This document shows positions 4,333-19,432 of a DNA stretch of 64,000 nt, piece after piece; the stretch's first letter is position 1, and every line of letters begins with the position of its first letter. Source of the DNA: Chryseobacterium sp. FP211-J200 (GTDB lineage Bacteria > Bacteroidota > Bacteroidia > Flavobacteriales > Weeksellaceae). The notes beneath the pieces were generated by a model. That model saw only the letters and a list, made by a program, of their open reading frames with translations. It was not told the DNA's origin and searched no databases. The position numbers were made by a program, and so were the translations under genes. The DNA lies in assembly GCF_001643375.1 (NCBI RefSeq), contig NZ_LSHB01000009.1:19993-83992 (forward strand), given 5' to 3'.

Positions 4333-6705
4333 ATGGAAAGAGCGTTAGAAAATTATATTGAAGAATTAAAATCAGATGTCGCTTCACGGGTTTATTCGGA
4401 AGGCGAAGGAGCAAGTTTTGAAGATAAATTCACAGAATATTGCATTGAAGTTTTGGAAAGCATCGGAAAATCCGAAGGAGCAAGAGTTTTGTCATACATT
4501 AACCCAAACAGTCAGGGCGGAATTGATTGGAAAATAAATGGGTTTTGTCTGAAAGATTTTGTGAAAGACGAAAACAAAAAAGAGTATTACGAAACGCTGG
4601 ATTTGTTTATCACTTTCTACAAAAACGAATACGATTACAACATTACAAAAGACGATTACACAAAGTCGCTCAATCAAATAAAACGTTTTATTAACTCTGC
4701 ATTAAAACGCCATATTGACTATATTGATAAATCAAACACCGAATTATATCATTTAATCGAAACCATTGGAAAACAAGGCAAAGATTTTGACCGTATCAAT
4801 GTTTATTTCCTGATAAATGGCTTTTCAAATCACGACAAAGAAAAGATTGAAGTTGCTGACGCTGATATTTTCGTCCATACCTGGGACATTGCCCGATTGT
4901 TCAAAATCAATGAAAGCAACAGTGTTCACGAACCGATAGAAATAGAATTTGAACATTTTACCGAAAACGGAAAAGGTTTGCAATGCCTGCAAGTTCCGGG
5001 TATTGATGAAATGTATGATTGTTATCTGGCAATTGTGCCTGGTGAAATATTAGCAAAATTGTACAAAGAATTTTCAAATGAATTATTGGAAAGCAATGTT
5101 CGTGCGTTTTTGGGACAGGCAGGAAAATTCAACAAAGGAATCAGAGATACCATTCGCACAAAACCGCAAATGTTTTTGCCGTACAACAACGGTATTACTG
5201 CCACAGCCGAAAGCGTTGAAACAAAGTTTGTGGACAATCAACTTGTCATTACACGATTGTACGATTTCCAGATTGTGAACGGTGGACAAACAACGGCCTC
5301 GCTTTATCACACACAAAAGAAATTTAAAGATGCTAATTTGAGCAAAATTTTTGTTCAGATGAAACTGACGGTTATCAAAGATAAAGACCAGAAAAACATT
5401 GAAGTTCCCAACATTTCACGCTTCGCAAATAGTCAGAACAAAGTTTCAGAATTAGACTTGTCGTCAAACAATCCGTATTTTGTGCAGATTGAAAACCTGT
5501 CGAGGAAAAAATATGTGGTCAATCCTGAAAATAAAAATCAGTCACGTTTATGGTTCTTTGAACGTGCTAACGGACAATATCGGGAAACACTGAACAAACA
5601 AACGCCTGCACAACAAAAGAAGTTCAAAGAACAGAATCCGTCAAGTCTGAAATTTGTAAAATCAGATATTGCAAAATTCATCAACGGTTGGGAATTAGAA
5701 CCGCATTTTGTAGCTCAGGGTTCGCAGAAAAACTTTATTCATTATACAAAAAAAATCACGGATTTAGTCAGCAAAAACAAATTGCCAGGAGAGAATTTTT
5801 ATCGTAAACTCATTGCTAATGCTATTTTGTTTAAAACCATTGACCAGCTTTTCGGAAGAAAAGGAGTTAATGCGATTGGCGACACAAGTTTGAAAGCTCT
5901 TTCCGTTGCTTATACAGTTTCGTATTTCCACCATTTGACAAACAACAGAATTGATTTGTGGAAGATTTACGAAGAACAAAAAATTGACGATTTTTTGAGC
6001 AATCAGTTATCAAAATTGCTTGTATTTGTTTACAACCACATTATTACAGAAGCAAGCGGAAGTTTGATTTCGGAATATGCAAAACGTGCTACTTCGTGGG
6101 AGAAACTGAAAAATACAGCATATTCCGAAGATTTGGTTTCGGTTTTAAACGAGTATTTGATTTCGGAAGAAGAAAAAATACAACGGGAAAACGAGAAAGA
6201 AATTGACACGAACAACATAGAAGATTCCGTTTTTGTAATCAGCGAAATTCAAAAAATGGGATTGAAATTCTGGGACGGTTTTAGAATTTACATAGACACT
6301 AATAAGCCTGATGGTTTTGATTGGTCTATCGCTTTTGATTTGGTAAGCCGACTGAACAAGAATAAAAATCTGACGGCAAGGGAAATTACCTTTGGTAAAA
6401 AAGTGTTAGACTATATTCAGGAAAATTCAGCACTTATTGACGAAGTAAAAGCCTTGTCGAAATTAGAAGACAAAGAAATTGTAGAAGTGAAATTTATCTA
6501 CGATAAACTTCTATTAGTTTCAAAAGACGATTGGAAACGAATTATAGATGTAGCCAGCCATACAAAAGTGTTCGATAACCTTGAATTAGCAAACGTAAAA
6601 GCCGTTCAAACCGCATTGGCTAAAAAGGAAAAAATAAAAGAGCAAGCCTTAATTCGGGCTTATGAATCATTGGGGAAATTGAAAAAGTTTGGCATTAAGG
6701 TATAG
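4333..6705 (+). CDS. AIPR-family (abortive infection phage resistance) protein
   Basis: This 790-residue protein ends the operon. It shows the AIPR signature: an FLPYNNGITATA segment near residue 280, then QIVNGGQTTASLY near residue 315 and an NISRFANSQNKV stretch near residue 360. AIPR proteins are known from abortive-infection loci and from Z1/MORC clusters. Their activity is not firmly established, although a nucleic-acid-acting role is usually assumed. The start lies 3 nt after the PD-(D/E)XK stop. No frameshift is seen, so all visible parts of the operon are intact. Confidence 0.88.
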   Translation: MERALENYIEELKSDVASRVYSEGEGASFEDKFTEYCIEVLESIGKSEGARVLSYINPNSQGGIDWKINGFCLKDFVKDENKKEYYETLDLFITFYKNEYDYNITKDDYTKSLNQIKRFINSALKRHIDYIDKSNTELYHLIETIGKQGKDFDRINVYFLINGFSNHDKEKIEVADADIFVHTWDIARLFKINESNSVHEPIEIEFEHFTENGKGLQCLQVPGIDEMYDCYLAIVPGEILAKLYKEFSNELLESNVRAFLGQAGKFNKGIRDTIRTKPQMFLPYNNGITATAESVETKFVDNQLVITRLYDFQIVNGGQTTASLYHTQKKFKDANLSKIFVQMKLTVIKDKDQKNIEVPNISRFANSQNKVSELDLSSNNPYFVQIENLSRKKYVVNPENKNQSRLWFFERANGQYRETLNKQTPAQQKKFKEQNPSSLKFVKSDIAKFINGWELEPHFVAQGSQKNFIHYTKKITDLVSKNKLPGENFYRKLIANAILFKTIDQLFGRKGVNAIGDTSLKALSVAYTVSYFHHLTNNRIDLWKIYEEQKIDDFLSNQLSKLLVFVYNHIITEASGSLISEYAKRATSWEKLKNTAYSEDLVSVLNEYLISEEEKIQRENEKEIDTNNIEDSVFVISEIQKMGLKFWDGFRIYIDTNKPDGFDWSIAFDLVSRLNKNKNLTAREITFGKKVLDYIQENSALIDEVKALSKLEDKEIVEVKFIYDKLLLVSKDDWKRIIDVASHTKVFDNLELANVKAVQTALAKKEKIKEQALIRAYESLGKLKKFGIKV

Positions 6706-7020
6706 CATTGATGTCCCATTACAACAAGACACTAATGGTTGATTTTGAAAAAAACTATACATTTAAAGATAAATATGAGGAGGAAAGTAATTTTCGTATA
6801 TTTGCTATGAGCTAACGGAAACACGTTGAAAAGCAAAGCAATAAGCACCGTTACTAAATCGTTACCTGACTTTTTTGATAATCTTTATAAAAGCTTAGTA
6901 TTCAACCGATACAGCTTTTTCCTGAAAACTTTAAAATAAATTAAAAAAAACACTGTTGCTTGTATTGATTATAGATCTCTGAAATGCTCGTCGATCAAAG
7001 GTATAATTTGGGGTAAAAAA
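6706..7020. other. Intergenic stretch after the defence operon
   Basis: These 315 bp are AT-rich with no convincing ORF on either strand. No rho-independent terminator follows the AIPR stop. The stretch separates the rightward defence operon from the leftward HTH gene and may hold a junction between two cargo modules. Confidence 0.5.
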
Positions 7021-7041
7021 AACACCAACTCTCGTTGGTAT
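7021..7041 (-). terminator. Terminator of the small HTH gene
   Basis: CACCAAC (7023-7029) pairs with GTTGGT(A) (7034-7040) around a TCTC loop. On the minus strand the stem is followed by a long U-tract, from the A-run at 7014-7022. It begins immediately after the stop codon of the HTH gene. Confidence 0.75.
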
Positions 7042-7042
7042 T

Positions 7043-7276
7043 TTATTCATTTATAAGTTTAAAAAATTGTTCAAGAGTAAGTTTTCTTGCTTTACAGATT
7101 CTATAAAGTGTTTCAACAGGAATCCTATATGTATTGTCACTTTTAATTTTTCTGACCGTACTTTCTTCAACATCGTGATTTTTAGCAAACGAATTCTGTG
7201 ACTTATCTTCTTTAAGCCAAGGAATTAACCAATTTTTAGTTATATAAGAACAGATTTTCTCGTTTATGTCAATCAT
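7043..7276 (-). CDS. Small Cro/CI-type HTH regulator next to the dCas12f-sigma locus
   Basis: This 77-residue protein contains one helix-turn-helix (residues ~25-60: SQNSFAKNHDVEESTVRKIK) followed by a short helical end, the usual form of a one-domain XRE repressor. It is divergent from the sigma/dCas12f transcription unit. The ~70 bp between its start and the rightward promoter contain three palindromes, so it is a reasonable candidate repressor of that promoter and of itself. This link is inferred from position only. Confidence 0.75.
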   Translation of the reverse strand: MIDINEKICSYITKNWLIPWLKEDKSQNSFAKNHDVEESTVRKIKSDNTYRIPVETLYRICKARKLTLEQFFKLINE

Positions 7277-7306
7277 TCAACAAAAGAAATATTTTGTTAT
7301 CAAAAT

Positions 7307-7328
7307 ATTACGGCCGTTCGACCGTAAT
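7307..7328. promoter_or_regulatory. Inverted repeat, possible operator
   Basis: ATTACGG (7307-7313) and CCGTAAT (7322-7328) form a perfect 7-bp inverted repeat with an 8-bp spacer. It lies 31 bp upstream of the HTH start and about 20 bp upstream of the rightward -33 element, where a repressor could act on both directions. Confidence 0.4.
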
Positions 7329-7346
7329 TAAATTATTTTTGTTACA

Positions 7347-7378
7347 TTTGTAATATAAGTTACAAGAATGTAACTTTG
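7347..7378 (+). promoter_or_regulatory. Bacteroidetes promoter driving the structured RNA and the sigma-dCas12f genes
   Basis: TTTG at 7347-7350, a 20-bp spacer and TAACTTTG at 7371-7378 match the Bacteroidetes consensus (TTTG, N19-21, TAnnTTTG) exactly. Transcription should begin near 7384. Both elements sit inside palindromes: TTACA-tt-TGTAA at 7342-7353, and GTTACA-agaa-TGTAAC at 7359-7374. The promoter is therefore probably controlled by a DNA-binding protein, perhaps the neighbouring HTH protein. Confidence 0.75.
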
Positions 7379-7383
7379 CGATA

Positions 7384-7555
7384 GTTAAATGAAATATAGA
7401 AGCTATTGCTTAGATTCTCGACTGGAAAACTGGCACTTTTCAAGAAGCAACGAGTTGATAAGTAAATGTGCCCACGACTTCGGCGTGGGCTCACTTATCG
7501 TTGCTCGGTATGCCAGTACCACCAGTCGGTAAGTTGAGTTCCACGCTTTTTCTTT
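7384..7555 (+). ncRNA. Structured leader RNA, candidate guide-RNA scaffold for the dCas12f-sigma system
   Basis: Nested pairing covers 7419-7528. CGACTGG (7419-7425) pairs with CCAGTCG (7522-7528). ACTGGCA (7429-7435) pairs with TGCCAGT (7511-7517). GCAAC (7447-7451) pairs with GTTGC (7500-7504), or alternatively CGAG (7451-7454) with CTCG (7504-7507). GATAAGT (7457-7463) pairs with ACTTATC (7493-7499), and GCCCACG (7470-7476) with CGTGGGC (7484-7490). The tip is a C(UUCG)G tetraloop at 7478-7483, which strongly favours an RNA function. The CGAG...GCUCGGUA arrangement resembles the conserved stem of known Cas12f tracrRNAs as I remember them. A T-rich tract (7547-7555) could end the RNA. Ends and any guide are unknown. 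Confidence 0.65.
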
Positions 7556-7647
7556 TGTGCTAAACCTAAAGAAATGAGGATTAAGATGTAGGTAGAATTC
7601 TTCTTAGTAGATATAAGCAGTTCCTTCAGCAATAATTTTGCTAAAAT

Positions 7648-8472
7648 ATGCTGCTTATGAAAAGAACAAACTCTTTGCCCAGAAAGTTGAGCAATCTTCA
7701 GTTGTACGAACTGCTGAAAAAAGGTAATCCTGTTTCTCTCGAACACATTCATCTGCGCCACAAAAGACTTCTTTTCTGGGTTGGATGGCAAATACTGAAG
7801 GATGATTTCGTAGTGGATACGATTGTTCAGGATACCTTCCTAAAATTGTGGCTGTACCGCGACACCATCGAATCGCCTGATCATATTACCGGCTTTTTAC
7901 GCTTTGTGATGAAAAGGGATTGTATCGCGTATGTCACTGCTCCCAGGAATAAATTCACCCGCCTGATGGCTTCTCTTGACAGTTTTGAGAATTACCAGGA
8001 GTATCTTGCAGGTTACGATCCTTTGAAAGATAAAGAGTATTTACACGGCCAGGAATCCGACCAAAATAAATTCGATGAAATCACAAAGGTATTACCCGTT
8101 CTGAATCCCAAAAGGAAACACCTGATAGAACTCTGCCTGGAATATGGCTTCCAGTACAAACCCATTGCAGAAGCTATGGGAAGCAGTGTGACAGGCATCA
8201 GCACGGAGGTGAGCAAAGCCATACAAGAGCTTCGGAAAATTCTTAAGGTCACTTCTTTTGAGCCACCACAAGAAAAAACTTTCAATAAAGAAGAGCAATC
8301 AGAACAACTCAGCAGTCAACAGCTCGAGATCATCAAAAGACGGTTTGAGCAGAAATCTTCTTTTGCGGTGATTGCACAAGAACTCAAACTACCTGAGAAG
8401 GAAGTCCATCGGGAATTTCTGTACGCCTATCAGCACCTGCAAAATCATAACCGATCTGAAATACCGCTTTAA
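7648..8472 (+). CDS. ECF-like sigma-70 factor coupled to a dead Cas12f
   Basis: This 274-residue protein has a sigma2-like region (residues ~30-85, with the VQDTFLKLW helix that contacts core RNA polymerase) and a sigma4-like region (~150-200, a helix-turn-helix around YKPIAEAMGSS). An unusual third part (~221-270) looks like a second sigma4-type HTH: LSSQQLEIIKRRFEQ, then VIAQELKLPEKEV. ECF sigmas are normally under 200 residues, so ~75 residues are extra and could bind the dCas12f partner. No anti-sigma gene is nearby. The Cas12f-like gene starts 1 nt after the stop, and the gene lies downstream of the structured RNA and its promoter. The ATG at 7657 is an alternative start. Confidence 0.85.
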   Translation: MLLMKRTNSLPRKLSNLQLYELLKKGNPVSLEHIHLRHKRLLFWVGWQILKDDFVVDTIVQDTFLKLWLYRDTIESPDHITGFLRFVMKRDCIAYVTAPRNKFTRLMASLDSFENYQEYLAGYDPLKDKEYLHGQESDQNKFDEITKVLPVLNPKRKHLIELCLEYGFQYKPIAEAMGSSVTGISTEVSKAIQELRKILKVTSFEPPQEKTFNKEEQSEQLSSQQLEIIKRRFEQKSSFAVIAQELKLPEKEVHREFLYAYQHLQNHNRSEIPL

Positions 8473-8473
8473 T

Positions 8474-9568
8474 ATGGAAAAGTCTACAATAACGCTGACG
8501 CGCAAAATTCAACTGGTGATAGATGTTCCAGTCGACAGTAAAAGCGAAATGTGGGAAAAACTTTACCGGTATCAGAACCGCTGTTTCCGGGCGGCTAATC
8601 TGATTGTTTCACATCTGTATGTTCAGGAAATGATCAAGGATTTCTTTTACCTCACCGAAGAAATCCAATATAAGTTAGCTGATGAAAAAAAGGATGAAAT
8701 GGGAATCTTCGACCGTTCGAAAACAAACACCACAGCACGTCTAGTCTTTGACAAATTCAAAGGAGAAATCCCCACAGACATTCTGGGATGCCTGAACAAT
8801 ACGATACAATCTACCTTTTCCAAAAACAAAGCCGACTACTGGCAGGGCTCAAAATCACTACAGAATTTTAAAAAAGACATTCCCATTCCCCTTCCGGTGA
8901 AATGCATCAGCAAAATGAAGTATGATCCGGAAAAGAAAGCGTTCACTTTCAATATGTTTGCGATTCCGGTCAAAACCTATTTAGGGAGAGATTTCTCTGA
9001 TAAACATTTAATTCTGGAACGCCTTTTAAGAGAAGAGATCAAGCTGTGCAACTCACAGGTACAGCTGAAAGGCGGTAAGATCTTTTGGCTGGCCGTCTTT
9101 GAATTTGAAAAGGAAGACCACGGTTTAAAACCCGAAATCATTGCTGAAGCTTCTTTGTCATTAGAACATCCGATTGTGGTAAAAGCCAACAATGTGCGGA
9201 TGGCTATCGGCTCGAAAGAGGAATTCCTCTACCGCAGGCTGGCGATACAGGCCAGTAATAAAAGGATCAGAGGCGGAGCCGCTTATTCCCGTTCCGGACA
9301 CGGAACCAAACGCAAACAGAAGGCATTGCACAAAACTGAGGATCTGGAAAACAGTTTTGTCAGTCACCATCTTCATCTGTACAGCCGGCAGTTGATTGAT
9401 TTCTGCATCCGGCAGCAGGCGGGCACCCTGATTCTCAAAGATCAGGAAGACAAAATAGGGATTGCAAAAGAACAGGAGTTTGTACTTCGCAACTGGAGTT
9501 ATTATGAATTGCAGGCCAAAATAAAATACAAAGCAGAAAAGGCCGGTATCGAATTGATCATCGGATAG
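8474..9568 (+). CDS. Nuclease-dead, C-terminally shortened Cas12f/TnpB-family protein (dCas12f)
   Basis: This is a 364-residue protein; the in-frame ATG at 8474, 1 nt after the sigma stop, is the natural start. An IPIPLPVK stretch near residue 135 and the block from ~265 onward (SGHGTKRKQK, then IDFCIRQQAGT, then NWSYYELQAKI) follow remembered Cas12f1 sequences closely. The RuvC-I strand, normally GIDVG, reads LSLEHP (Asp replaced, Glu231). The RuvC-II strand, normally MENL, reads LKDQ (Glu replaced by Lys322). The protein stops at GIELIIG, before the zinc finger and the RuvC-III Asp. It should bind guide RNA and DNA but not cut. The coupled sigma gene points to RNA-guided transcription initiation. 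An inactive transposon TnpB is the alternative; no TnpA or IS605 ends are seen. Confidence 0.85.
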   Translation: MEKSTITLTRKIQLVIDVPVDSKSEMWEKLYRYQNRCFRAANLIVSHLYVQEMIKDFFYLTEEIQYKLADEKKDEMGIFDRSKTNTTARLVFDKFKGEIPTDILGCLNNTIQSTFSKNKADYWQGSKSLQNFKKDIPIPLPVKCISKMKYDPEKKAFTFNMFAIPVKTYLGRDFSDKHLILERLLREEIKLCNSQVQLKGGKIFWLAVFEFEKEDHGLKPEIIAEASLSLEHPIVVKANNVRMAIGSKEEFLYRRLAIQASNKRIRGGAAYSRSGHGTKRKQKALHKTEDLENSFVSHHLHLYSRQLIDFCIRQQAGTLILKDQEDKIGIAKEQEFVLRNWSYYELQAKIKYKAEKAGIELIIG

Positions 9569-9569
9569 C

Positions 9570-9690
9570 TAAAAAAATGAGGGTGCTTGTAAACCCGTAG
9601 GGTGAGGTTTTGAACACTCACTAAATACTGGAAAATGAAACTTTTTTCCGGTGTATACAACGGCGTGGGTTTCTTTTTTTTCAAAAATTA
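9570..9690 (+). ncRNA. Structured region after dCas12f, candidate guide/crRNA-like RNA
   Basis: Immediately after the dCas12f stop are GGGT (9581-9584) with ACCC (9593-9596), GTGAG (9602-9606) with CTCAC (9617-9621), and ACTGGAAAA (9627-9635) with TTTTCCGGT (9644-9652). The segment ATGAAAC at 9635-9641 resembles the AUGAAAC/GUGAAC-like 3' end of CRISPR and Cas12f repeats. The bases from 9642 on could then be a guide. A T8 run at 9674-9681 could terminate transcription. I see no second repeat copy. An ordinary 3' UTR with a terminator is the competing reading. Confidence 0.42.
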
Positions 9691-9751
9691 AGAAAGCATA
9701 ACCAAAAAATCAAATTGCAATAGGAGAATCCTACATCATCAAAGGTGTCAT

Positions 9752-9835
9752 CAATCAATCCAGCGTGATTGATTGCTTCCCTGCTTCCTTGAATTCTTGC
9801 TTTCTTGAAGTCTTGAATTCTTGTTTCCTTAATTG
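9752..9835. repeat. Inverted repeat plus 8-bp tandem repeats between dCas12f and mob
   Basis: CAATCAATC (9752-9760) and GATTGATTG (9767-9775) form a perfect 9-bp stem with a 6-nt loop. From 9788 the tetranucleotide CTTG recurs every 8 bp (9788, 9796, 9804, 9812, 9820), followed by CTTA at 9828. CTTGAATT occurs at both 9788 and 9812. The region lies just past the 3' end of the relaxase gene. Its role is unknown: protein-binding repeats or slippage-prone sequence. Confidence 0.5.
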
Positions 9836-9876
9836 CCATCAATCAAAAGAAATCACTCTGCAATACGTAGTGGTTA

Positions 9877-11037
9877 TTAGAGTCTTTTTCTCTTTCTTTT
9901 ATTTTGAATTGGAATATCCTCAGCCTCATAATTTGTACTGTTGTTACCGAATTGCAACAGAGAGAAAAGCTGATTTGTCATTCCAGTATCTTTAAAAATC
10001 TCATTGAAGGCTGAAAATGGAACCGTATTTTCTTGTGAAATTTTCTGTGCTATTTTTTCCATTTCCGATATCAGCTTTTGCTTATCTGTTCTATCTAGGT
10101 GTGGATTTCTGAATCGTGAAAATTTGATTTCCCTCTCAACAATGTTAATAACAGAATCCAGATATTTTTTCTTTTCTGAAGCAAAAACGGTAGGGTTGGT
10201 CAATAATACAGCGTTTTTGTTTTTGGATAAATGTACCTGCTTTTTTAAATCATCAACCTTTGTATTGAGCTCAGTAATTTGTTTTGATTTGGATTCCAAT
10301 TCCGTTTTATTTTTTAGAATTGTGCTTTTGTAAGTTCGAAATGCTTTTTCATAATTTTCAATGGTCTTGTCAGTCTTAATTTTTTTAAAACCTAGAAAAT
10401 CATTTTCCTTGACAACCAGCTCCTCCGATTTCTTCGAACCCATTTCAGATTTCATTAGGTCATACCTTTCTTCCAAAACTTTGAGATCTTCTTCCTTCTG
10501 CTGAATCTTAAACTCAATGGCTTCCAATCTTCCTCTGGAACCAGAAATCCCTCTTTCCATATTGAGGCATTCAGCTGTCAGATCCTGCATTTTTGAATAA
10601 TGAAAGGATTGGTGTTTGAGTGTTTTGCCAGTATTCAAATCCTGCCAGTCAGCTATCAAATGAGCATGGTAATTTGGTTTCCATTCTTTCGTGTCTTTAT
10701 CAGTGTGTCCTTCATCTTTGTGAATGGCGATCTGAAATACACGGATGCTCAATTCTTCTTCCAGTCTCTTTGCTAAGTTTTGAAGTTCCAGCATCGTTGT
10801 ATCTTCTTTGATCACGACAACCGCTTCCCGAACAGGCATTGCATTCTTCTGTAATTTTCTTCCGGACTTTTCTTTGCAATACGCTTCGATCTTTTGAATC
10901 CTGTCAGCTATTCTCTGTTCCATCCAGTATTCATTTCTTGGCGTCAGGTCTTTCCGGATGTAATCAAAAGTTTTCTTCCTGAAATTGTGGGTTTCAGAAT
11001 CGGACTTAACAACTTTGAAATTAATAGAGGTCTTCAT
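9877..11037 (-). CDS. MobV-family relaxase
   Basis: This 386-residue protein has the MobV/Pre relaxase motifs: an IHKDEGH segment near residue 106 (HxDE) and NYHAHLI near residue 122 (HxH metal ligands). The N-terminal block around residues 50-100 carries the PVREAVVVI strand typical of the family. The C-terminal half (~170-270) is coiled-coil. The enzyme nicks oriT and stays attached to the 5' end during mobilization by a helper conjugation machine. It is encoded by the same strand and in the same order as in NBU-type elements (int, xis-like, VapE-like, primase, mob). Confidence 0.88.
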   Translation of the reverse strand: MKTSINFKVVKSDSETHNFRKKTFDYIRKDLTPRNEYWMEQRIADRIQKIEAYCKEKSGRKLQKNAMPVREAVVVIKEDTTMLELQNLAKRLEEELSIRVFQIAIHKDEGHTDKDTKEWKPNYHAHLIADWQDLNTGKTLKHQSFHYSKMQDLTAECLNMERGISGSRGRLEAIEFKIQQKEEDLKVLEERYDLMKSEMGSKKSEELVVKENDFLGFKKIKTDKTIENYEKAFRTYKSTILKNKTELESKSKQITELNTKVDDLKKQVHLSKNKNAVLLTNPTVFASEKKKYLDSVINIVEREIKFSRFRNPHLDRTDKQKLISEMEKIAQKISQENTVPFSAFNEIFKDTGMTNQLFSLLQFGNNSTNYEAEDIPIQNKRKRKRL

Positions 11038-11198
11038 TGCTTTTACATCTTTAAAGTTTTACACTTTTATTGTTTTATGCTTTTAAATTTTCGCTGAAGA
11101 TTGCTGTAGTTATATTACGCAGCAATAATTTTTACCTGTGTTTATTTTACACACCTTGGATGAAAATGACAGTGTCCTTTACACTGGTAAATAGAACC

Positions 11199-11304
11199 AA
11201 CCTGATATTATTTTACTCAGGTTAAAAGCCTCGCAGAGCGTATTAGAAACTTTGTTGGGAGGCACGACCTTCAAAGTTGCGAATGCGCTCCTAACTTCTG
11301 CGGG
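11199..11304. other. Large imperfect inverted repeats between primase and mob, candidate oriT
   Basis: AACCTGA and TCAGGTT form a 7-bp inverted repeat near 11199-11223. A much larger nested structure follows. GAGCGTATT (11236-11244) pairs with AATGCGCTC (11282-11290) with one GT pair. AACTTTG (11248-11254) pairs with CAAAGTT (11272-11278), and AGG (11260-11262) with CCT (11268-11270). CGCA and TGCG flank it at 11232 and 11299. The position just upstream of the relaxase gene is where mobilizable elements keep oriT. A structured RNA is the other possibility. Confidence 0.5.
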
Positions 11305-11332
11305 TAGTAGGTAAAAAATACAGCACGCCTTA

Positions 11333-12316
11333 TCAGCGTTTCCTTTTAAAACCATTTGAATTTTTGATTTTCGGCTCCTGATTTACTGCTTTCATTTTAT
11401 TAGGTTCCTGTGATTGTTCAGATTGTTTTCCTGCCTTATTTGATACATTATTTTTCATTCTGTGTATCAAAAATTCGTTGAGATCTTTATGGTTTGAATA
11501 GAAACTGGCATGGTCTTTTGCTGCCGGAAAAGATCTTATGATCTCAGACCTGCATTTAATTCCCGCATTATCGTTGTCCAGAAAAAGATGGATGTCAGGA
11601 TAGTTTTTCAGATGTTCGATGGATTTGTTTAAAAGAGCAATGGAATTCATTACAAGGATATCTCCTACAAAAGACTTCTGCATTTCAATAAAAGACAAGG
11701 CATCCATAAAACCTTCAAAAACGGCTACGCCTCTGATATCCCTATTTTGAATATTTGATTTATCCTGACCATTGCTGTTGAGATCTATTATGGAAACATC
11801 CTTTTTCAATAATGAACCTTTGTAAAAAGCATTACGCAATTCAAAACCGCCAGATAAGTTCTCAAAACCAATGGTGTAGAGTTTCTTACTTCCGATGGTA
11901 AATCGTACTTCTTTTATATGATCATAGACTTTGGGACTTAATCCACGTCCCTGCAAATATTGTTTTAGGTTTGGATTCTGGAGATCCAGTATTTCATCTA
12001 TTGTGTAATTTGGTTCTGACTTTTTAATCTGTGCTTGCTGATGAAAAGAAGAAAAATTTTGCTTTTGCGCCCAGTCCAGAACTTCATTGACCGAAGCATT
12101 TAGATATTTCTTCATAAAGTCGGTGTTATTCCCACCGACACCTTCTGAATGGAGATACCAGGCATTAATTCTTTTTTCCAATTTGAAAGAGGCTTGGGAT
12201 TCGCTGGCAAAGGGGTTGAGATACCAAGCTTCTTTTTCATTTTGTTTCGTGGGAAGGTGTCCGAGAGAAAGGAGGACTTCTTCCAGCGATATGCTGTTAA
12301 ATTGTTTACAGTTCAT
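11333..12316 (-). CDS. Toprim-domain primase-like protein of the mobile element
   Basis: This 327-residue protein has a CHC2-like N-terminal region without the zinc-binding cysteines (residues ~1-65, with NPFASESQASFK and GVGGNNTDFM) and a Toprim core. The core contains VFEGFMDALSF near residue 200, giving the catalytic Glu, and HLFLDNDNAG near residue 245, giving the DxD acids. It is the counterpart of the primase (prmN1) of NBU elements, which supports replication after transfer. The C-terminus from ~290 is low-complexity and basic. Confidence 0.85.
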   Translation of the reverse strand: MNCKQFNSISLEEVLLSLGHLPTKQNEKEAWYLNPFASESQASFKLEKRINAWYLHSEGVGGNNTDFMKKYLNASVNEVLDWAQKQNFSSFHQQAQIKKSEPNYTIDEILDLQNPNLKQYLQGRGLSPKVYDHIKEVRFTIGSKKLYTIGFENLSGGFELRNAFYKGSLLKKDVSIIDLNSNGQDKSNIQNRDIRGVAVFEGFMDALSFIEMQKSFVGDILVMNSIALLNKSIEHLKNYPDIHLFLDNDNAGIKCRSEIIRSFPAAKDHASFYSNHKDLNEFLIHRMKNNVSNKAGKQSEQSQEPNKMKAVNQEPKIKNSNGFKRKR

Positions 12317-12339
12317 TTTTTCTATGTTTTTAATTAAAA

Positions 12340-12520
12340 TACTTACCTAGTTACCGATCTGTTGATCATCAAATAAATAATCCTCTTTTTGCGACTACCT
12401 TGATCTACCTACTTACCCAATTTATTATTGAGGTAACTTAGGTAGGTTTGGATTTATCTACTTACCTAATTAAAACATTCACATTGTGTCACTTAAAGCT
12501 ATTAGGTAGGTTGGTAGAAT
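12340..12520. repeat. Iteron-like TACTTACCTA repeats between VapE-like gene and primase
   Basis: Copies of ACTTACC(TA) occur in direct orientation at 12341, 12411 and 12460, with inverted copies (TAGGTAGGT/TTAGGTAGG) near 12439 and 12502. ATCTAC precedes several copies. The clustering of one 9-10-bp word in both orientations, next to replication genes, suggests a binding array or a replication origin of the excised element. Confidence 0.5.
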
Positions 12521-12532
12521 AATTCTGTCTAA

Positions 12533-13699
12533 TTATTTTATGGTCTTCAATCGAATGAGATAACCGTAGATCTGTCTTTGTGGATGTTTAACTCTTGGAA
12601 ATTTGAAAGAGGATAAAGCTCTCCCGATCTTTAAATGATTCAAACGGACACCGTGAGAATTCAGATCGATCATCACTTCTGTCGCAGTCATAAATTCTTC
12701 AAGATTATCGGAGGGTTCGTAGAACTTGTTCACGATCTCCTGTTCCAGGGTCATTTGTGTAAATCGTTCATTGCGTTTTTCATTCTCCAGAATATCTGTT
12801 ACAGACAGTTCCGGATTATAATTTTTCCTTTTAAAAGCTTTGTAGTAAGCCTGCGCCCAAACTTTATCAATATTGATCTCTGACGAATAAATGAAGTTGA
12901 TCTTCTCGGTCACTTCAAAAATGATCCACCTTACACTTCCCGAATCATCGGTTAAAAAATCTGTTTTATTGGTAGATCCCACAAAGCTGCAGATCCGCTC
13001 CAGATATTCTGATTTCCTTGCGTAAGGCAATCTCTCGTTAATATGCGTTTTGGAGATATAAGCCTTTAGTGAATTGATGTCTGCTTTAGCCAAAACTGAC
13101 AATTCATCCAGATTGATGATCAGATTCTTGCACAATTTGATCCTGCTGTCTTTGTCCAGACCAATGTCTTCAGAAATATAATTCATCAGTTTTTCAGGAA
13201 TAAAAAACCTTAAATAGGTTGATTTTCCGCTATTCTGGATGGCATTCGCAAGAACCAGACAATGTTTGTTTATCTTTTCTTTTTCCAAAGCACAGAGTAC
13301 CGCTCTGGTAAACCATTTTTCGGTGTGATAGAAAAATGAAGCGTCATCATTGGTTTTCACATAAGAACAAAGCTTCCTGATATGATCTTCACCATCCCAA
13401 TCTTCCAGACTTTTAAAATATTCTGAAATGGGATCATACTGTTCGATCAAATGACTTCTGACCAGGATCTCCAGTTTATTGATCGGGATATCAATTCCTG
13501 ACTGAATAAGTTCGATAAACAATGAGTTCAAATTTAGATCTGACCATTTTTTATCTGAACTCAATTTGATCTCAAACTCCAGAGATATAGTATTAAACCG
13601 AATGGAATATTTAGAATTGAGATAATTCAATGCCCGGTCAAAGATCGTTTTAGTTTCTGTACCGGTTTGATACAGCGTTTTATTCTCTTCCATAAACAT
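12533..13699 (-). CDS. VapE/VirE-type P-loop protein of the mobile element
   Basis: This 388-residue protein resembles virulence-associated E proteins. An LEDWDGEDHI motif near residue 95 comes before the ATPase core. The Walker A is QNSGKST near residue 157, and a NLDEL segment near residue 195 fits Walker B. VapE proteins are helicase-like ATPases common in phages, satellites and NBU/CTn elements, where they accompany primases. The ATG three codons in (13693) is an equally good start. It precedes the primase on the same strand, with the repeat array between them. Confidence 0.82.
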   Translation of the reverse strand: MFMEENKTLYQTGTETKTIFDRALNYLNSKYSIRFNTISLEFEIKLSSDKKWSDLNLNSLFIELIQSGIDIPINKLEILVRSHLIEQYDPISEYFKSLEDWDGEDHIRKLCSYVKTNDDASFFYHTEKWFTRAVLCALEKEKINKHCLVLANAIQNSGKSTYLRFFIPEKLMNYISEDIGLDKDSRIKLCKNLIINLDELSVLAKADINSLKAYISKTHINERLPYARKSEYLERICSFVGSTNKTDFLTDDSGSVRWIIFEVTEKINFIYSSEINIDKVWAQAYYKAFKRKNYNPELSVTDILENEKRNERFTQMTLEQEIVNKFYEPSDNLEEFMTATEVMIDLNSHGVRLNHLKIGRALSSFKFPRVKHPQRQIYGYLIRLKTIK

Positions 13700-13767
13700 T
13701 TGGGATTGTGGAAACGGAACATATAATTTTTATATCTGAGCTCTACTTCCAGGTAAAACAAACATCT

Positions 13768-13797
13768 AAAACCTGACTGCTGCCACAGTCAGGTTTT
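13768..13797 (-). terminator. Strong terminator after the excisionase-like gene
   Basis: AAAACCTGACTG (13768-13779) and CAGTCAGGTTTT (13786-13797) form a perfect 12-bp stem around a 6-nt loop. The A-run before it and T-run after it make it able to work in both directions. The stem includes the first bases of the stop codon of the 13796-14077 gene. Confidence 0.85.
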
Positions 13798-14077
13798 ATT
13801 TTTTGCGTAAAGAAAATTCTATGGCTTCCTGTTGAATTTCATCATTTGATTTATGGCTGTTTTTCAACAACCATTCATCAATTTTAGTTCGTTCAAAAAA
13901 AAGAACTTTCCCATTAGGTTTAGAAAAAGGAAGACTGTTGGTATGAACTAATTTATAGATATAGGATTTTTTAAATCCTGTATAATCTGAAAGTTCTTCA
14001 ACATTAAGAATAGATTTGAGACCGACAATATGCTTTTCAATTCGGTTCAGCTTGTGAAGGATGATTTCGTTTTCCAT
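13796..14077 (-). CDS. Excisionase-like HTH protein
   Basis: This 93-residue protein has a winged-helix HTH_17/AlpA-type core (residues ~22-70): SVEELSDYTGFKKSYIY-like helices, then a LPFSKPNGKVLFF wing and an IDEWL helix. Such proteins act as directionality factors or as regulators of excision in Bacteroidetes elements (orf2x of NBU1). It precedes the VapE-like gene in the same direction, with a terminator between them, so the two may be transcribed separately. Confidence 0.82.
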   Translation of the reverse strand: MENEIILHKLNRIEKHIVGLKSILNVEELSDYTGFKKSYIYKLVHTNSLPFSKPNGKVLFFERTKIDEWLLKNSHKSNDEIQQEAIEFSLRKK

Positions 14078-15081: not shown

Positions 15082-16029
15082 TTAACTGTTTTTGAATAAT
15101 TGAAATCTATAATTTAGTAGATCTTTATATATCATTTTGTTTTCCTGCATGAGGAAAGATATATCAATCAAATCCATCATCTTTTTTTCAGCCTTTATAA
15201 ACCTATTGAAAATGTTTGCAATTTGTTTGTCAGACAATCCGAATTTTAATCCTAAGTTAATGAAATCAGCTTTTGTCAATCTACTTTTCTTTCCTCCGAT
15301 CGTCAATGCTGTTTCTTCTTTATCTTCCGGTAAATGAAGCTGGACATTCAGCAGATCATAAGCAGGTGAAAACACCCAATTTTCACCTTGTAAGATCATA
15401 GAGAAATTCTTCAGGTGCATATCATTATTCCCTGTGATATAACTGAAAATAACCACTTCATAAAGTCGTAAAACATCAAGTAAAGTATTAGAAGAATACT
15501 CATTCACAGCTTTGCCAACTTTCTCCATGGAACTTTTATACTTGTCAGATGCCTCCGTTATCTGAAACATATCCAACATATGTATTTTCCCGTTAGATGC
15601 TGTTCTGTCAATTCTTTTTGTGATGTACGAAAGCTCTCCCGATTTTAATCTTATCAGTGAAGACACCACGGTCTGAATTCTTGATAACTCTGCCAACCGC
15701 ATTGTCAGATGTTCGTTTTCCGGCATTTGAGGGAAAGCCATATTCTGAGGTTTCAGGATGTAATTACCTCCTAAAGCTTCCAGAACTGTCAACCTTCCCT
15801 TAGTCCCATCTTCTAGTTTTTCTTTCGTGAAGTTTAAAGACAATTTTGGTTGGACGCCTGGTACCGAAATAGATGTTTCTATAACCTCCTTAGCTAAAAT
15901 TTCCATTTCGCTTAAAGAATAGTTAAGCACTGGAGCTGTAGCGGTTCCGAAAATTATCTTACTGCATTTCGGATGAAAGTCAACTTCATTGTCTTTCAAC
16001 AGTTGATAACAAAAAAGACACTTATTCAT
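15082..16029 (-). CDS. hipT: HipT-type Ser/Thr kinase toxin (split HipA)
   Basis: This 315-residue HipA-like kinase lacks the N-terminal subdomain, which is encoded by the preceding gene. A small Cys/His cluster (CLFC...HPKC) begins the protein. An SISVPGVQPKLSL glycine-rich loop near residues 53-65 includes the SIS autophosphorylation motif known from HipT. ITKRIDR follows near residue 135, and the GNNDMHLKNFS catalytic loop near 205 and PAYDLLN metal-binding segment near 225 are present. HipT phosphorylates a tRNA synthetase (TrpS in E. coli). The 8-bp overlap with hipS and the hipB-hipS-hipT order support a tripartite HipBST system that stabilises the element or aborts infection. Confidence 0.88.
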   Translation of the reverse strand: MNKCLFCYQLLKDNEVDFHPKCSKIIFGTATAPVLNYSLSEMEILAKEVIETSISVPGVQPKLSLNFTKEKLEDGTKGRLTVLEALGGNYILKPQNMAFPQMPENEHLTMRLAELSRIQTVVSSLIRLKSGELSYITKRIDRTASNGKIHMLDMFQITEASDKYKSSMEKVGKAVNEYSSNTLLDVLRLYEVVIFSYITGNNDMHLKNFSMILQGENWVFSPAYDLLNVQLHLPEDKEETALTIGGKKSRLTKADFINLGLKFGLSDKQIANIFNRFIKAEKKMMDLIDISFLMQENKMIYKDLLNYRFQLFKNS

Positions 16030-16739: not shown

Positions 16740-17879
16740 TCAAAACTCAATATTTAGTTCCGGGATAATCTCAGCAGCTTCTTTCATTTTGCTATCCACG
16801 ATTTTAGCATAAATCTGCGTAGTTCTCAATTCTCTATGTCCTAGTCTTTTGGAAACTGTGTAAATGTCAGCACCATTTTCCAGAAGTAGGACAGCATTCG
16901 TATGTCGAGCTGAATGAAAAGTAATATGTTTCGGAACCGCAGCACGATTGCACCAGCGGATAATTTCAGTATTGTAGGTCATTCCATATTTTAACCCTTT
17001 GAAAACTCTTTCTTGCGGATCTTGTCTTTCACCCAACAATTCTCTGGCTTGTTTTGAAATATATAGATATTCTACACCTTCTGTTTTTTCTTGTCGGAAA
17101 TTGACTCTGGAAATATCACCTTCATCACGGACTTCTTTCCAAATCAAAGTATTGATATCTGACCAACGTAATCCTGATAAACACGAAAAAAGAAAAGCTT
17201 TTTTCAAAACCGGATATTTACATTCCGCTTTTGCTAATCGTTGTAGTTCATCAAAAATAAGATATTCTCTTTGGCTTTCAGCCTGCTCAAATGATTTTAT
17301 TTTTGCTGCATAATTTATGGTCAAATATCCATTATCGAAAGCATTTCGAAGTGCAGCTTTAAACTTGTTGAAATAAGAATATTTGGAGTTCTGAGAAAGA
17401 GGTAAATCACTCTTACTGATTGCATCCTTTTCAAAGTATTTCCGAACTTTTTTAATGAAATATTCATCAATTTCCTCAAAAGTTAAATTCTTTGGAACTA
17501 CTTTTTTCAAATGCTGGTAAGTAGAGAACCAATTACCATAATTATTTGACGAATCGAGCGTTCGTTTTTCCTCAGCAAGATCAGCGAAGAAATTTAAAAA
17601 TACCCGTTTAGCTTTCGCAGTATTTTTCAACTCAAATCTTCCTTGCGCAAATTCAGCTTTTCGAATTGCAATAACATTTTCTGCAAATTCCAAAGCTTCT
17701 TTATTTTCTTTTTTTTCTTTGGCAGTTTTTGGATCTATAATTAGATAGGTGTCTAAGTTCTCAAAATTTCTCAGATGCTTTCTTTTTCCGTTATCAGTAA
17801 TTTCAGAACCACGGTAAAACTCGATTGACAGACTGATCCTTCCGTCCTTTAATTTTCTTTGACTAAGTGATATTTTCAT
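16740..17879 (-). CDS. Tyrosine recombinase (integrase) of the mobile island
   Basis: This 379-residue protein has an N-terminal arm-binding domain with the Bacteroidetes RKLKDGRISL opening, a SAM-like core-binding domain (~100-195) and the catalytic domain. Catalytic residues are visible: Arg in SGLRWSD near 235, HSARHT at 322-327 (His322, Arg325), LGHREL with His348, and Tyr357. It lies 167 bp from the 3' end of mnmE, a known target gene for integrative elements (for example SGI1 in Proteobacteria), and is the probable integrase for the island to its left. Confidence 0.92.
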   Translation of the reverse strand: MKISLSQRKLKDGRISLSIEFYRGSEITDNGKRKHLRNFENLDTYLIIDPKTAKEKKENKEALEFAENVIAIRKAEFAQGRFELKNTAKAKRVFLNFFADLAEEKRTLDSSNNYGNWFSTYQHLKKVVPKNLTFEEIDEYFIKKVRKYFEKDAISKSDLPLSQNSKYSYFNKFKAALRNAFDNGYLTINYAAKIKSFEQAESQREYLIFDELQRLAKAECKYPVLKKAFLFSCLSGLRWSDINTLIWKEVRDEGDISRVNFRQEKTEGVEYLYISKQARELLGERQDPQERVFKGLKYGMTYNTEIIRWCNRAAVPKHITFHSARHTNAVLLLENGADIYTVSKRLGHRELRTTQIYAKIVDSKMKEAAEIIPELNIEF

Positions 17880-17888
17880 AAATTCTGT

Positions 17889-17953
17889 TTTGTACTACTT
17901 TGTACTACTTTTCACTATTTTCGAGGTATGAAGTAGTACAAAAGTGGTACAAA
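17889..17953. repeat. Inverted/direct repeats before the integrase gene, possible arm or attachment sites
   Basis: TTTGTACTACTT occurs at 17889-17900 and again at 17899-17910. It is mirrored by GAAGTAGTACAAAAGTGG at 17930-17947, extended by TACAAA to 17953. The whole stretch is an imperfect inverted repeat of about 24 bp per arm, located between the integrase start and mnmE. It could be an integrase arm-binding region or operator near the right att site. Confidence 0.5.
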
Positions 17954-18046
17954 TATATAAATAAACACTAAAAAGAGAAAATAAAAACTATATAAATATC
18001 TGATAGTCAACTAAAAGAAAGAAAAAGAAATCAAAGAAAAGCTAAT

Positions 18047-19432
18047 TTATTTCCCGATACAAAATTTAGAAAAAATATTCCCCAGCACCTCATCGTTGCT
18101 GAATTCCCCAGAGATCTCACCAAGATATTCCAACGCATTGCGTAGTTCATAAGCCAATAGCTCGGTCGTGATTTGAGAACTTACAGCTTCTTCAACCTTT
18201 CTCACCGAGTCAAGTGATTTCTTCAAAGCTTCGAAGTGGCGTTGGTTGGTGATAATCACATTATTTTCTTCGGATTTTAAATGCTCAACGAACGAGGACA
18301 ACTCATTTTTGAGGTCCTGAATGTTTTGATTTTCGACAGCCGAAATTTTTATGAAATCAAAGTCAGATGTGATCTCTGTTCTAAATGCGGATTCCACAAG
18401 CTCATATTTTGTAGGTAGAACTTCGTCAATTTTCGTAGCACAGATGATCAGTTTTAGATCTTCTCTCAACAGCGGTTTTAGAATTTCAAAGTCTTCCGAA
18501 AAATCTTCCGTCGCCGCATCCGCCAAATAGATCAGAACGTCCGCAGAATCTACTTTTTCCTTTGCCTTTTTTACGCCAATTGCTTCTATCTCATCCACCG
18601 TTTCGCGCAATCCTGCCGTATCTATCAGTCGGAAAGCGTTGCCTTTGATGTGCAAAATTTCCTCGATCGTATCTCGCGTAGTTCCGGCAATATTGCTCAC
18701 GATTGCCCTTTCTTCTTTCAAAAGCGCATTCAAAAGTGTGGATTTTCCAGCATTAGGCTTTCCGATGATGGCAACAGCTGTCCCATTTTTTATAGCGTTA
18801 CCGTACTGGAAACTTTCGATGAGAGAACTTAATTTACCTTCGATCCTATTAAGCAATTGGTTGAGTGCTGTTCTATCTGCAAACTCTACATCTTCCTCAG
18901 CAAAATCCAATTCCAGTTCTATCAGAGATGTAAAATTCAAAAGGTCATTCCTAAGGATAGAGATCTCTTGAGATATCCCACCTTTCAGTTGATTCAGAGC
19001 CACTTTTCTGGATGCTTCATTATCAGAGGCGATCAGGTCTGCGATGGATTCAGCTTGCGAAAGGTCAATCCGTCCATTCATAAAGGCTCGCATCGTGAAT
19101 TCTCCTGCTCTCGCCATTCTAGCACCATTTTGGATCAGAACTTCCAAGATCCTTTTGGCAATGTAAGGCGAACCGTGAAATGAGATCTCCACAGAATTTT
19201 CTGTCGTAAAGGTCTTCGGAGCATGGAAGACAGAGATCATCACCTCATCGATCACCTCACTCTCATCCTTTATGAAGCCGTAATGTACCGTATGAGAATC
19301 TACTTTTTCCAAGTTTTTTCCCTGGAATATCTTGCTTACAATTTCAAAAGATCGCTCTCCGGAAATCCTGATGATCCCGATAGCTCCTATTCCGTTTGCC
19401 GTGGCCAATGCACAGATCGTGTCTTGATTCAT
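18047..19432 (-). CDS. mnmE: tRNA uridine-5-carboxymethylaminomethyl(34) synthesis GTPase
   Basis: This is a full-length 461-residue MnmE. It has an N-terminal tetrahydrofolate-binding domain (starting TICALATANGIGAIGIIRISG), a central G domain with GKPNAGKSTLLNALL near residue 225 (G1), DTAG near 271 (G3) and an ATKID segment near 340 (G4), and the C-terminal FCIGK motif whose Cys is functional. With MnmG it modifies U34 of several tRNAs. Its 3' end abuts the integrase module, and the intact FCIGK end means insertion restored the coding sequence. A core att repeat should overlap the last bases of the gene. Confidence 0.97.
   Translation of the reverse strand: MNQDTICALATANGIGAIGIIRISGERSFEIVSKIFQGKNLEKVDSHTVHYGFIKDESEVIDEVMISVFHAPKTFTTENSVEISFHGSPYIAKRILEVLIQNGARMARAGEFTMRAFMNGRIDLSQAESIADLIASDNEASRKVALNQLKGGISQEISILRNDLLNFTSLIELELDFAEEDVEFADRTALNQLLNRIEGKLSSLIESFQYGNAIKNGTAVAIIGKPNAGKSTLLNALLKEERAIVSNIAGTTRDTIEEILHIKGNAFRLIDTAGLRETVDEIEAIGVKKAKEKVDSADVLIYLADAATEDFSEDFEILKPLLREDLKLIICATKIDEVLPTKYELVESAFRTEITSDFDFIKISAVENQNIQDLKNELSSFVEHLKSEENNVIITNQRHFEALKKSLDSVRKVEEAVSSQITTELLAYELRNALEYLGEISGEFSNDEVLGNIFSKFCIGK

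Follow-up and report, generated by a model that had tools for sequence, protein, structure and literature searches.

We analyzed a stretch of 64,000 nucleotides from Chryseobacterium sp. FP211-J200 (contig NZ_LSHB01000009.1, positions 19,993 to 83,992; referred to as the window), which contains a locus that appears to encode a nuclease-dead Cas12f-family protein (dCas12f), a sigma factor of the extracytoplasmic function (ECF) type and a predicted guide RNA. We consider it probable that these components bring RNA polymerase to DNA sites inside the leaders of their own operon and of two operons encoding SusC and SusD (susCD), and thereby raise the expression of these operons. Read directly from the sequence are the gene pair, the lost RuvC residues, a scaffold with a variable end 3' of the dCas12f gene, four copies of the leader in the genome, the guide core within the hairpin in three of these, and covariation. 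The features concerned are the following:

7384-7557, plus strand: structured leader RNA with two mutually exclusive folds and a T-run at its end (7547-7557), recognized by folding, covariation and further copies in the genome
7483-7500, plus strand: predicted dCas12f target site GCGTGGGCTCACTTATCG, with a G before it, in the 3' strand of the terminal hairpin of the leader, recognized by its match to the guide core
7528-7546, plus strand: leader tail GGTAAGTTGAGTTCCACGC, which is the complement of the target strand and gives an attenuator-like hairpin ahead of the T-run
7648-8472, plus strand: ECF-type sigma factor (Pfam Sigma70_r4, 2.1e-9 in two stretches; Sigma70_r2, 5e-4, below cut-off)
8474-9568, plus strand: dCas12f, 364 amino acids, without the RuvC Asp and Glu and the C-terminal zinc finger (PDB 9n9c_A; S227/K322)
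9579-9661, plus strand: predicted guide RNA scaffold (profile match at 79/79 loci; fold z -3.75)
9662-9681, plus strand: predicted guide GGCGTGGGTTTCTTTTTTTT; the sequence past the conserved ATACAAC differs by lineage, and the T-run here may also terminate the transcript

The dCas12f and Sigma Factor Pair

The Cas12f-family protein was matched over residues 1-364 by PDB 9n9c_A, "Nuclease-deactivated Cas12f" (E 1.2e-159). The same solved dCas12f is present in PDB entries 9n9c, 9n9m, 9n9o and 9n9q, and its alignment with the window protein is full-length. The protein ends with "GIELIIG" and thus lacks the RuvC-III/zinc-finger end, and the Pfam TNB match covers only profile positions 1-20 of 60 and falls below the cut-off. 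In an alignment to a solved Cas12f effector, Ser227 takes the place of the RuvC-I Asp and Lys322 that of the RuvC-II Glu, the two positions being those which we take to be catalytic. The losses at both positions and at the C-terminus are as an earlier note on this DNA had described them. A match to NF040570 (guided_TnpB, E 1e-14) was below cut-off, and PDB 9nzo could be aligned in the RuvC region.

The comparison was extended to 79 dCas12f loci, i.e., the window copy, a second copy in the same genome and 77 named relatives. Sixty-two loci could be scored for at least one of the two catalytic positions, and in none did we find Asp or Glu; the other 17 of the 79 were left unscored due to alignment gaps. 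The plasmid and phage collections yielded 4 and 2 records, respectively, all TnpB-like with about 25-31% identity, and no close dCas12f.

The sigma factor gene lies directly upstream, separated from the dCas12f gene by a single nucleotide, and the plus strand order is leader (7384-7557), sigma gene (7648-8472), Cas12f-family gene (8474-9568) and predicted guide RNA; order, coordinates and gap had all been given correctly before. Comparison with the second copy suggests that translation of the sigma factor probably starts at 7657. PDB 9n9q_C, "RpoE", matched the sigma protein with E 3.5e-75. Residues 20-268 of 274 aligned to this solved RpoE, and the earlier description of the sigma factor as atypical does not hold. 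The pairing of a dead Cas12f with a sigma factor of the reported kind does, since full-length relatives are present in PDB 9n9c and 9n9q. A sigma gene was found upstream of dCas12f at 77/79 loci, the remaining two matches being partial, and no homologue with tnpA and without sigma was seen, although the flanks of the relatives were not searched for tnpA. The gap between the two genes was 1 nucleotide at 64 of the 79 loci and 2 nucleotides at 8.

The Predicted Guide RNA

Immediately past the 3' end of the Cas12f gene we identified a conserved sequence with the consensus GAGGGTGCTTGTA..ACCC..GTGAGGT..AACACTCACTAAAT..ATACAAC. The profile was built from 76 of the 79 loci and then matched at all 79. 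A few copies, e.g., L039 and L073, are shortened. Lineage-specific sequence begins after ATACAAC. At 67/79 loci it is the canonical guide (G)GCGTGGG... (L015, L031, and L075 assigned by eye), while very different letters were found in Echinicola, Zunongwangia, Joostella and others. Second or third copies of the RNA with other guides are present at L033, L062-L064, L067, L071, and L072, and remote copies at L058 and L211, the latter being a solo copy in Echinicola shivajiensis. A conserved scaffold followed by a lineage-variable end has the anatomy of a guide RNA, and on this sequence evidence the 3' RNA is likely the guide RNA of the system.

The Guide Core in Leaders of the Same Genome

The leader is present in four copies in the genome. 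Two precede the dCas12f operons on contigs C9 (the window copy) and C16 (the second copy), and the other two, on C35 and C54, have no dCas12f; each of these precedes genes for SusC and SusD, identified with Pfam. We found four genomic occurrences of the 10-mer GCGTGGGCTC, one in the guide on C16 and one each in the leaders on C9, C35, and C54. The guide on C16 agrees with the leader on C54 over 12 nucleotides.

A preprint on exapted Cas12f homologues reportedly describes how RNA polymerase is recruited under RNA guidance, a 5' G being the minimal motif. In leaders having the site, the base before GYGTGRG was found to be G in 48/48 own-operon leaders and in 50/51 other distinct leaders. For the latter count, 58/68 non-own regions yielded a leader, of which 4 were without the site, and 3 duplicates were dropped. 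L131 and L210 have an A in this position. The conserved G is in agreement with the motif mentioned above, but may also have a structural reason in the leader RNA.

The Leader Has Two Mutually Exclusive Folds

The leader folds better than shuffled sequences (z -4.45) and covaries. A structured RNA upstream of the genes had been proposed previously, as had a promoter, here TTTG-N20-TAACTTTG. Fold A is a long hairpin of five helices in which 93.1% of cells are paired, with 82 double-change cells vs 22.5 in shuffles. In fold B the tail GAGTTCCACGC, located just before the T-run, forms pairs with the 3' side of the terminal helices. Here 95.2% of cells are paired, 10/14 pairs are changed on both sides, and there are 19 double-change cells vs 2.5 in shuffles. 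Because one strand is common to both, folds A and B are mutually exclusive. The predicted energies favor fold A for the window leader (-58.6 vs -45.2 kcal/mol) and the C35 leader (-63.1 vs -51.1 kcal/mol), while the predicted minimum of the C54 leader is fold B (-52.4). By its sequence and predicted folds the leader looks like an attenuator. Rfam searches at E up to 1 or 0.5 gave no family matching it.

The leader was found upstream of the sigma gene at 58/79 loci and was not found at the other 21, two of which are partial. Within the genus it was matched in 22/23 genomes vs 11/23 for dCas12f (one partial), and a restriction of the leader to dCas12f genomes was thereby ruled out. The genus sample comprised 48 regions, four of them (L166, L171, L184, and L207) without an nhmmer match, and 26 were classed as susC-type; SusC was judged by its N-terminus and a length of about 1000 amino acids, and by Pfam for L131 and L132 only. 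Seventeen susC-type leaders were aligned, and the promoter box TAAYTTTG was present in 17/17 and the TTTG box in 16/17 (L132 being without it).

Several other elements resembling or adjoining the leader were observed. Some 300 nucleotides between leader and susC are also conserved (AGTATCAG..GATACAATAGGAGGGTACAACCTATTGCGGC..) at the 17 aligned susC-type loci, including L131 and L132, and could represent another RNA element. A second leader class (AACGCTCACG..CGTGGGCGCTC) is present at L169, L173, L174, L180, L181, L187, and L202 with no susC-like gene seen downstream, and the L180 copy is surrounded by mobile-element-like genes. Weaker relatives of the leader were found at L170, L175, L189, L193, L200, L204, and L208, several of them close upstream of assorted genes, and in several a downstream GGAACT or GGGACT could pair with the tail.

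Leaders and Guide Matches in Other Genomes

The pattern GYGTGGGMTYWCTTATT (17 nucleotides, at most one mismatch), which was written to admit letters already seen in guides and own leaders, was searched in four Flavobacteriaceae (L060, L061, L065, and L066) with the guides GCGTGGGCTCTCTTATT or GTGTGGGATTACTTATT. Of its 13 matches, 4 are guide units, 4 are own leaders and the remaining 5 are other leader sequences; the reversed-pattern controls gave 0, 0, 2, and 0. In L060, GTGTGGG is present in the leader as well as in a second guide unit, which lacks a full scaffold. Two of the five other leader sequences, both in Flavivirga, are remnants that adjoin a transposase looking like IS110. Near-identical transposases of 331 amino acids (IS110 by look) were observed on the reverse strand at L242 (~1331) and L252 (~1332), next to fragments of the leader whose break is close to the terminal hairpin's loop.

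Three leaders with guide-like sites in Sinomicrobium (L305, L306, and L307) are followed by a small gene of unknown kind and then by RelA/SpoT, AbiEi/AbiEii plus N6-methylase, and HEPN genes, respectively. Judged from these gene neighborhoods, the leader family appears to be linked to defense-type cargo. Leader model searches of 10 dCas12f genomes (G038 being the same as G016 by coordinates) showed that nine have a leader besides those of the dCas12f operons. Among 18 such leaders with sequence available, reading by eye showed a SusC-like start within the 1.5 kb covered for nine and a thioredoxin-like start for one.

Echinicola has a different guide. Core matches to it lie upstream of SusC-type operons in 2/3 genomes, 140 and 207 nucleotides past leader-like RNAs with E 0.0033 and 0.27, the weak one (0.27) at L218. 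L303 carries genes for a thioredoxin-like protein, SusC and SusD (Pfam), and L304 for SusC (Pfam) and SusD (by eye). Several of the perfect matches to the Echinicola pattern were guide RNAs, including the solo copy L211, and the perfect match L215 was set aside as probably coding, by look. For one guide each of L067 and L072, a search for targets elsewhere in the genome gave an exact match only to the guide RNA itself; with up to 2 mismatches there were 14 matches vs 11 in the control, and 6 vs 6 (both contexts inspected for the latter seem coding).

Proposed Mechanism and Its Alternatives

For the reading that we favor, activation at the leaders, we infer RNA binding, DNA binding, activation, the start site and attenuation. 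RNA synthesis begun at the upstream housekeeping-type promoter would tend to end at the attenuator. dCas12f would bind the 3' RNA (9579-9681) and, together with the guide, would open an R-loop at the switching strand of the leader (5'-G, GCGTGGG...). The sigma factor would then recruit RNA polymerase, and the start would lie downstream, at or past the attenuator-like tail and the T-run. The susCD operons and the system's own operon would thus be transcribed whatever the state of the attenuator, and their expression would go up. Activation is proposed because of the homology with the solved pair and because of the report, mentioned above, of guide-directed recruitment of RNA polymerase.

A wider proposal holds that the bistable attenuator leaders are a new family acting as one conserved RNA switch, and that the guide has the DNA sequence of their switching strand, so that binding would at once bypass the attenuator and start transcription. 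A single regulon run through this switch by the RNA-guided sigma factor would comprise susCD, the system's own operon and, in some relatives, defense-type genes (RelA-SpoT, AbiE/methylase and HEPN in Sinomicrobium). It would amount to a self-amplifying surface-and-defense programme on mobile elements. We put this forward tentatively and regard it as rather doubtful.

A number of observations weigh against activation at the leaders. The window guide GGCGTGGGTTTC... is exact to the leaders over only 8 nucleotides, and past these there are mainly T/C differences, which could be G-U wobbles, together with true mismatches. The pattern GCGTGGGYTY gave 13 matches in the genome vs 4 in the control, comprising 2 guides, 3 leaders and 8 sites elsewhere, and the whole window guide with up to 3 mismatches gave 18 vs 10. 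The site is lost in the C16 copy's own leader and in 10/58 own-operon leaders overall. The G before the site may instead be kept for the structure of the leader RNA. Covariation of the guide RNA scaffold was not beyond that of shuffles, and cannot be shown because the scaffold is so conserved.

Among the genus genomes, susC-type leaders were found in 9/11 with dCas12f vs 7/12 without; being about as common without dCas12f, these leaders do not exist for the system. The canonical guide is kept at 17/21 loci without a leader, and the leaders of Echinicola dCas12f operons retain the hairpin though the guides differ. Within genomes, tracking of leader letters by guide letters 9-12 is suggestive in G034, G007, and G041 and is contradicted in G035, G039, and G040. 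In Echinicola the search with up to 1 mismatch gave 11, 9, and 11 matches vs 12, 15, and 11 in the control and was not above it. The two sites there share flanking sequence and are not independent, the L218 site is one letter off the guides of its genome, and the L210 site follows an A. Because the search is not above control, the flanks are shared and L218 is one letter off, we use Echinicola as supporting evidence only.

A rival explanation is that the guide is aimed elsewhere, the agreement of 8-12 nucleotides being fortuitous and the leader a plain attenuator common to the operon and the susCD operons. The short exact match of the window guide, the leaders in genomes without dCas12f, the lack of association between own leader and canonical guide and the 8/13 GCGTGGGYTY sites outside guides and leaders all fit this explanation. 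However, all four genome occurrences of GCGTGGGCTC are guide or leaders, and every one of the 13 matches that the longer pattern has in four other genomes is a guide unit or a leader sequence. We therefore find a fortuitous match improbable, though it is an explanation to be taken seriously.

A leader-bound dCas12f could alternatively act as a roadblock that halts RNA polymerase from the upstream promoter, as TldR does, with the sigma factor serving other promoters. The target does lie downstream of a conserved housekeeping-type promoter, and the related dead TnpBs are named repressors (TldR; PMC13418256). The sigma gene at 77/79 loci, and the sigma homologue within the same PDB entry as dCas12f (9n9q), argue against such a role and make it quite unlikely.

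Cas12f proteins bind DNA through their guide. This speaks against pairing of the guide with the leader RNA (the tail TTCCACGC or the 5' strand of the hairpin) as an RNA-RNA antiterminator that relieves attenuation, as does the location of the Echinicola sites outside the leader; the tail and the 5' hairpin strand are complementary to the guide core, and still we give this explanation very little credence. Equally slim is the chance that the leader itself is the guide-bearing RNA, as the earlier note held from its upstream position, its orientation and its structure, because 79/79 loci have a distinct conserved scaffold, variable at its end, on the 3' side of the Cas12f gene, and the leader is not found at 21/79 loci and occurs before susCD in genus genomes without dCas12f.

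Activation at the leaders is thus the reading that we retain. The earlier interpretation of the locus as an RNA-guided system stands with respect to the protein pair, the lost residues and the integrase/mnmE stretch, but not for the upstream RNA as guide RNA or for an atypical sigma factor.

Genomic Setting

Two further features were assigned upstream of the leader:

7347-7350 and 7371-7378, plus strand: TTTG and TAACTTTG boxes of what we take to be a Bacteroidetes-type promoter, TTTG-N20-TAACTTTG
7043-7276, minus strand: small divergent gene of the XRE/Cro helix-turn-helix type, 77 amino acids (Pfam HTH_26, E 2.5e-6)

An inverted repeat, TTACAAGAATGTAA (7360-7373), sits between the promoter boxes. 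At other leader copies the same place is occupied by divergent small genes, some of them helix-turn-helix genes and mostly read by eye; the one at L131 is HTH_3 (Pfam), and the one at L132 has no Pfam match.

In the same stretch as the window copy, a tyrosine integrase gene (16740-17879) adjoins mnmE, the two spanning 16740-19432. This is in agreement with the locus being cargo of an integrative element, as had been suggested. A gene with a HipA_C domain (15082-16029) lies beside the integrase. The second dCas12f copy, on C16, has 85% protein identity to the window copy and is flanked by genes resembling metal-resistance genes, as read by eye. The absence of tnpA alongside the locus was confirmed: three Y1_Tnp (tnpA-type) matches were found in the genome, all of them off contigs C9 and C16. 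No CRISPR-like array was found in 5000-14000, where there were only four imperfect two-copy repeats. No cas1/cas2 domain was found among the scanned neighbor genes, the genome as a whole not having been searched for them.

Comparison with Known Systems

The kind of machinery is already known, as judged from the protein sequences: both proteins are full-length homologues of those of the solved dCas12f-RpoE system (PDB 9n9c, 9n9m, and 9n9o; 9n9q with RpoE), with the same pairing. Compared to Cas12f nucleases and IS605 TnpB, whose RuvC region can be aligned with the window protein, the latter lacks the catalytic Asp/Glu and the zinc-finger end, and it has no CRISPR array nearby and no Y1_Tnp on its contig.

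We know of no sigma factor partner of TldR, which is like the window protein in being nuclease-dead and TnpB/Cas12f-like and in keeping guide RNA and DNA binding, the latter two predicted here. According to PMC13418256, TldRs are RNA-guided repressors exapted from TnpB. TldR represses, whereas the best PDB matches of the window locus are dCas12f and Cas12f effectors.

A literature search, which covered no bioRxiv preprints, found no paper on the dCas12f-sigma system or on the leader family; the family and its predicted function as a common target are likely new. With two mutually exclusive folds that both covary, no Rfam match and a presence in 22/23 genus genomes, the family is a candidate regulatory switch in its own right. 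For the recently described RNA-guided transcription machinery it offers candidate natural targets, namely, within one genome, the system's own operon along with two susCD operons, and, in Sinomicrobium, the leaders upstream of RelA/SpoT, AbiE/methylase and HEPN genes. At the protein level no difference from the dCas12f-RpoE system was seen at the window locus; what the literature searched did not describe is its predicted target, a family of bistable leader RNAs common to its own operon and susCD operons.

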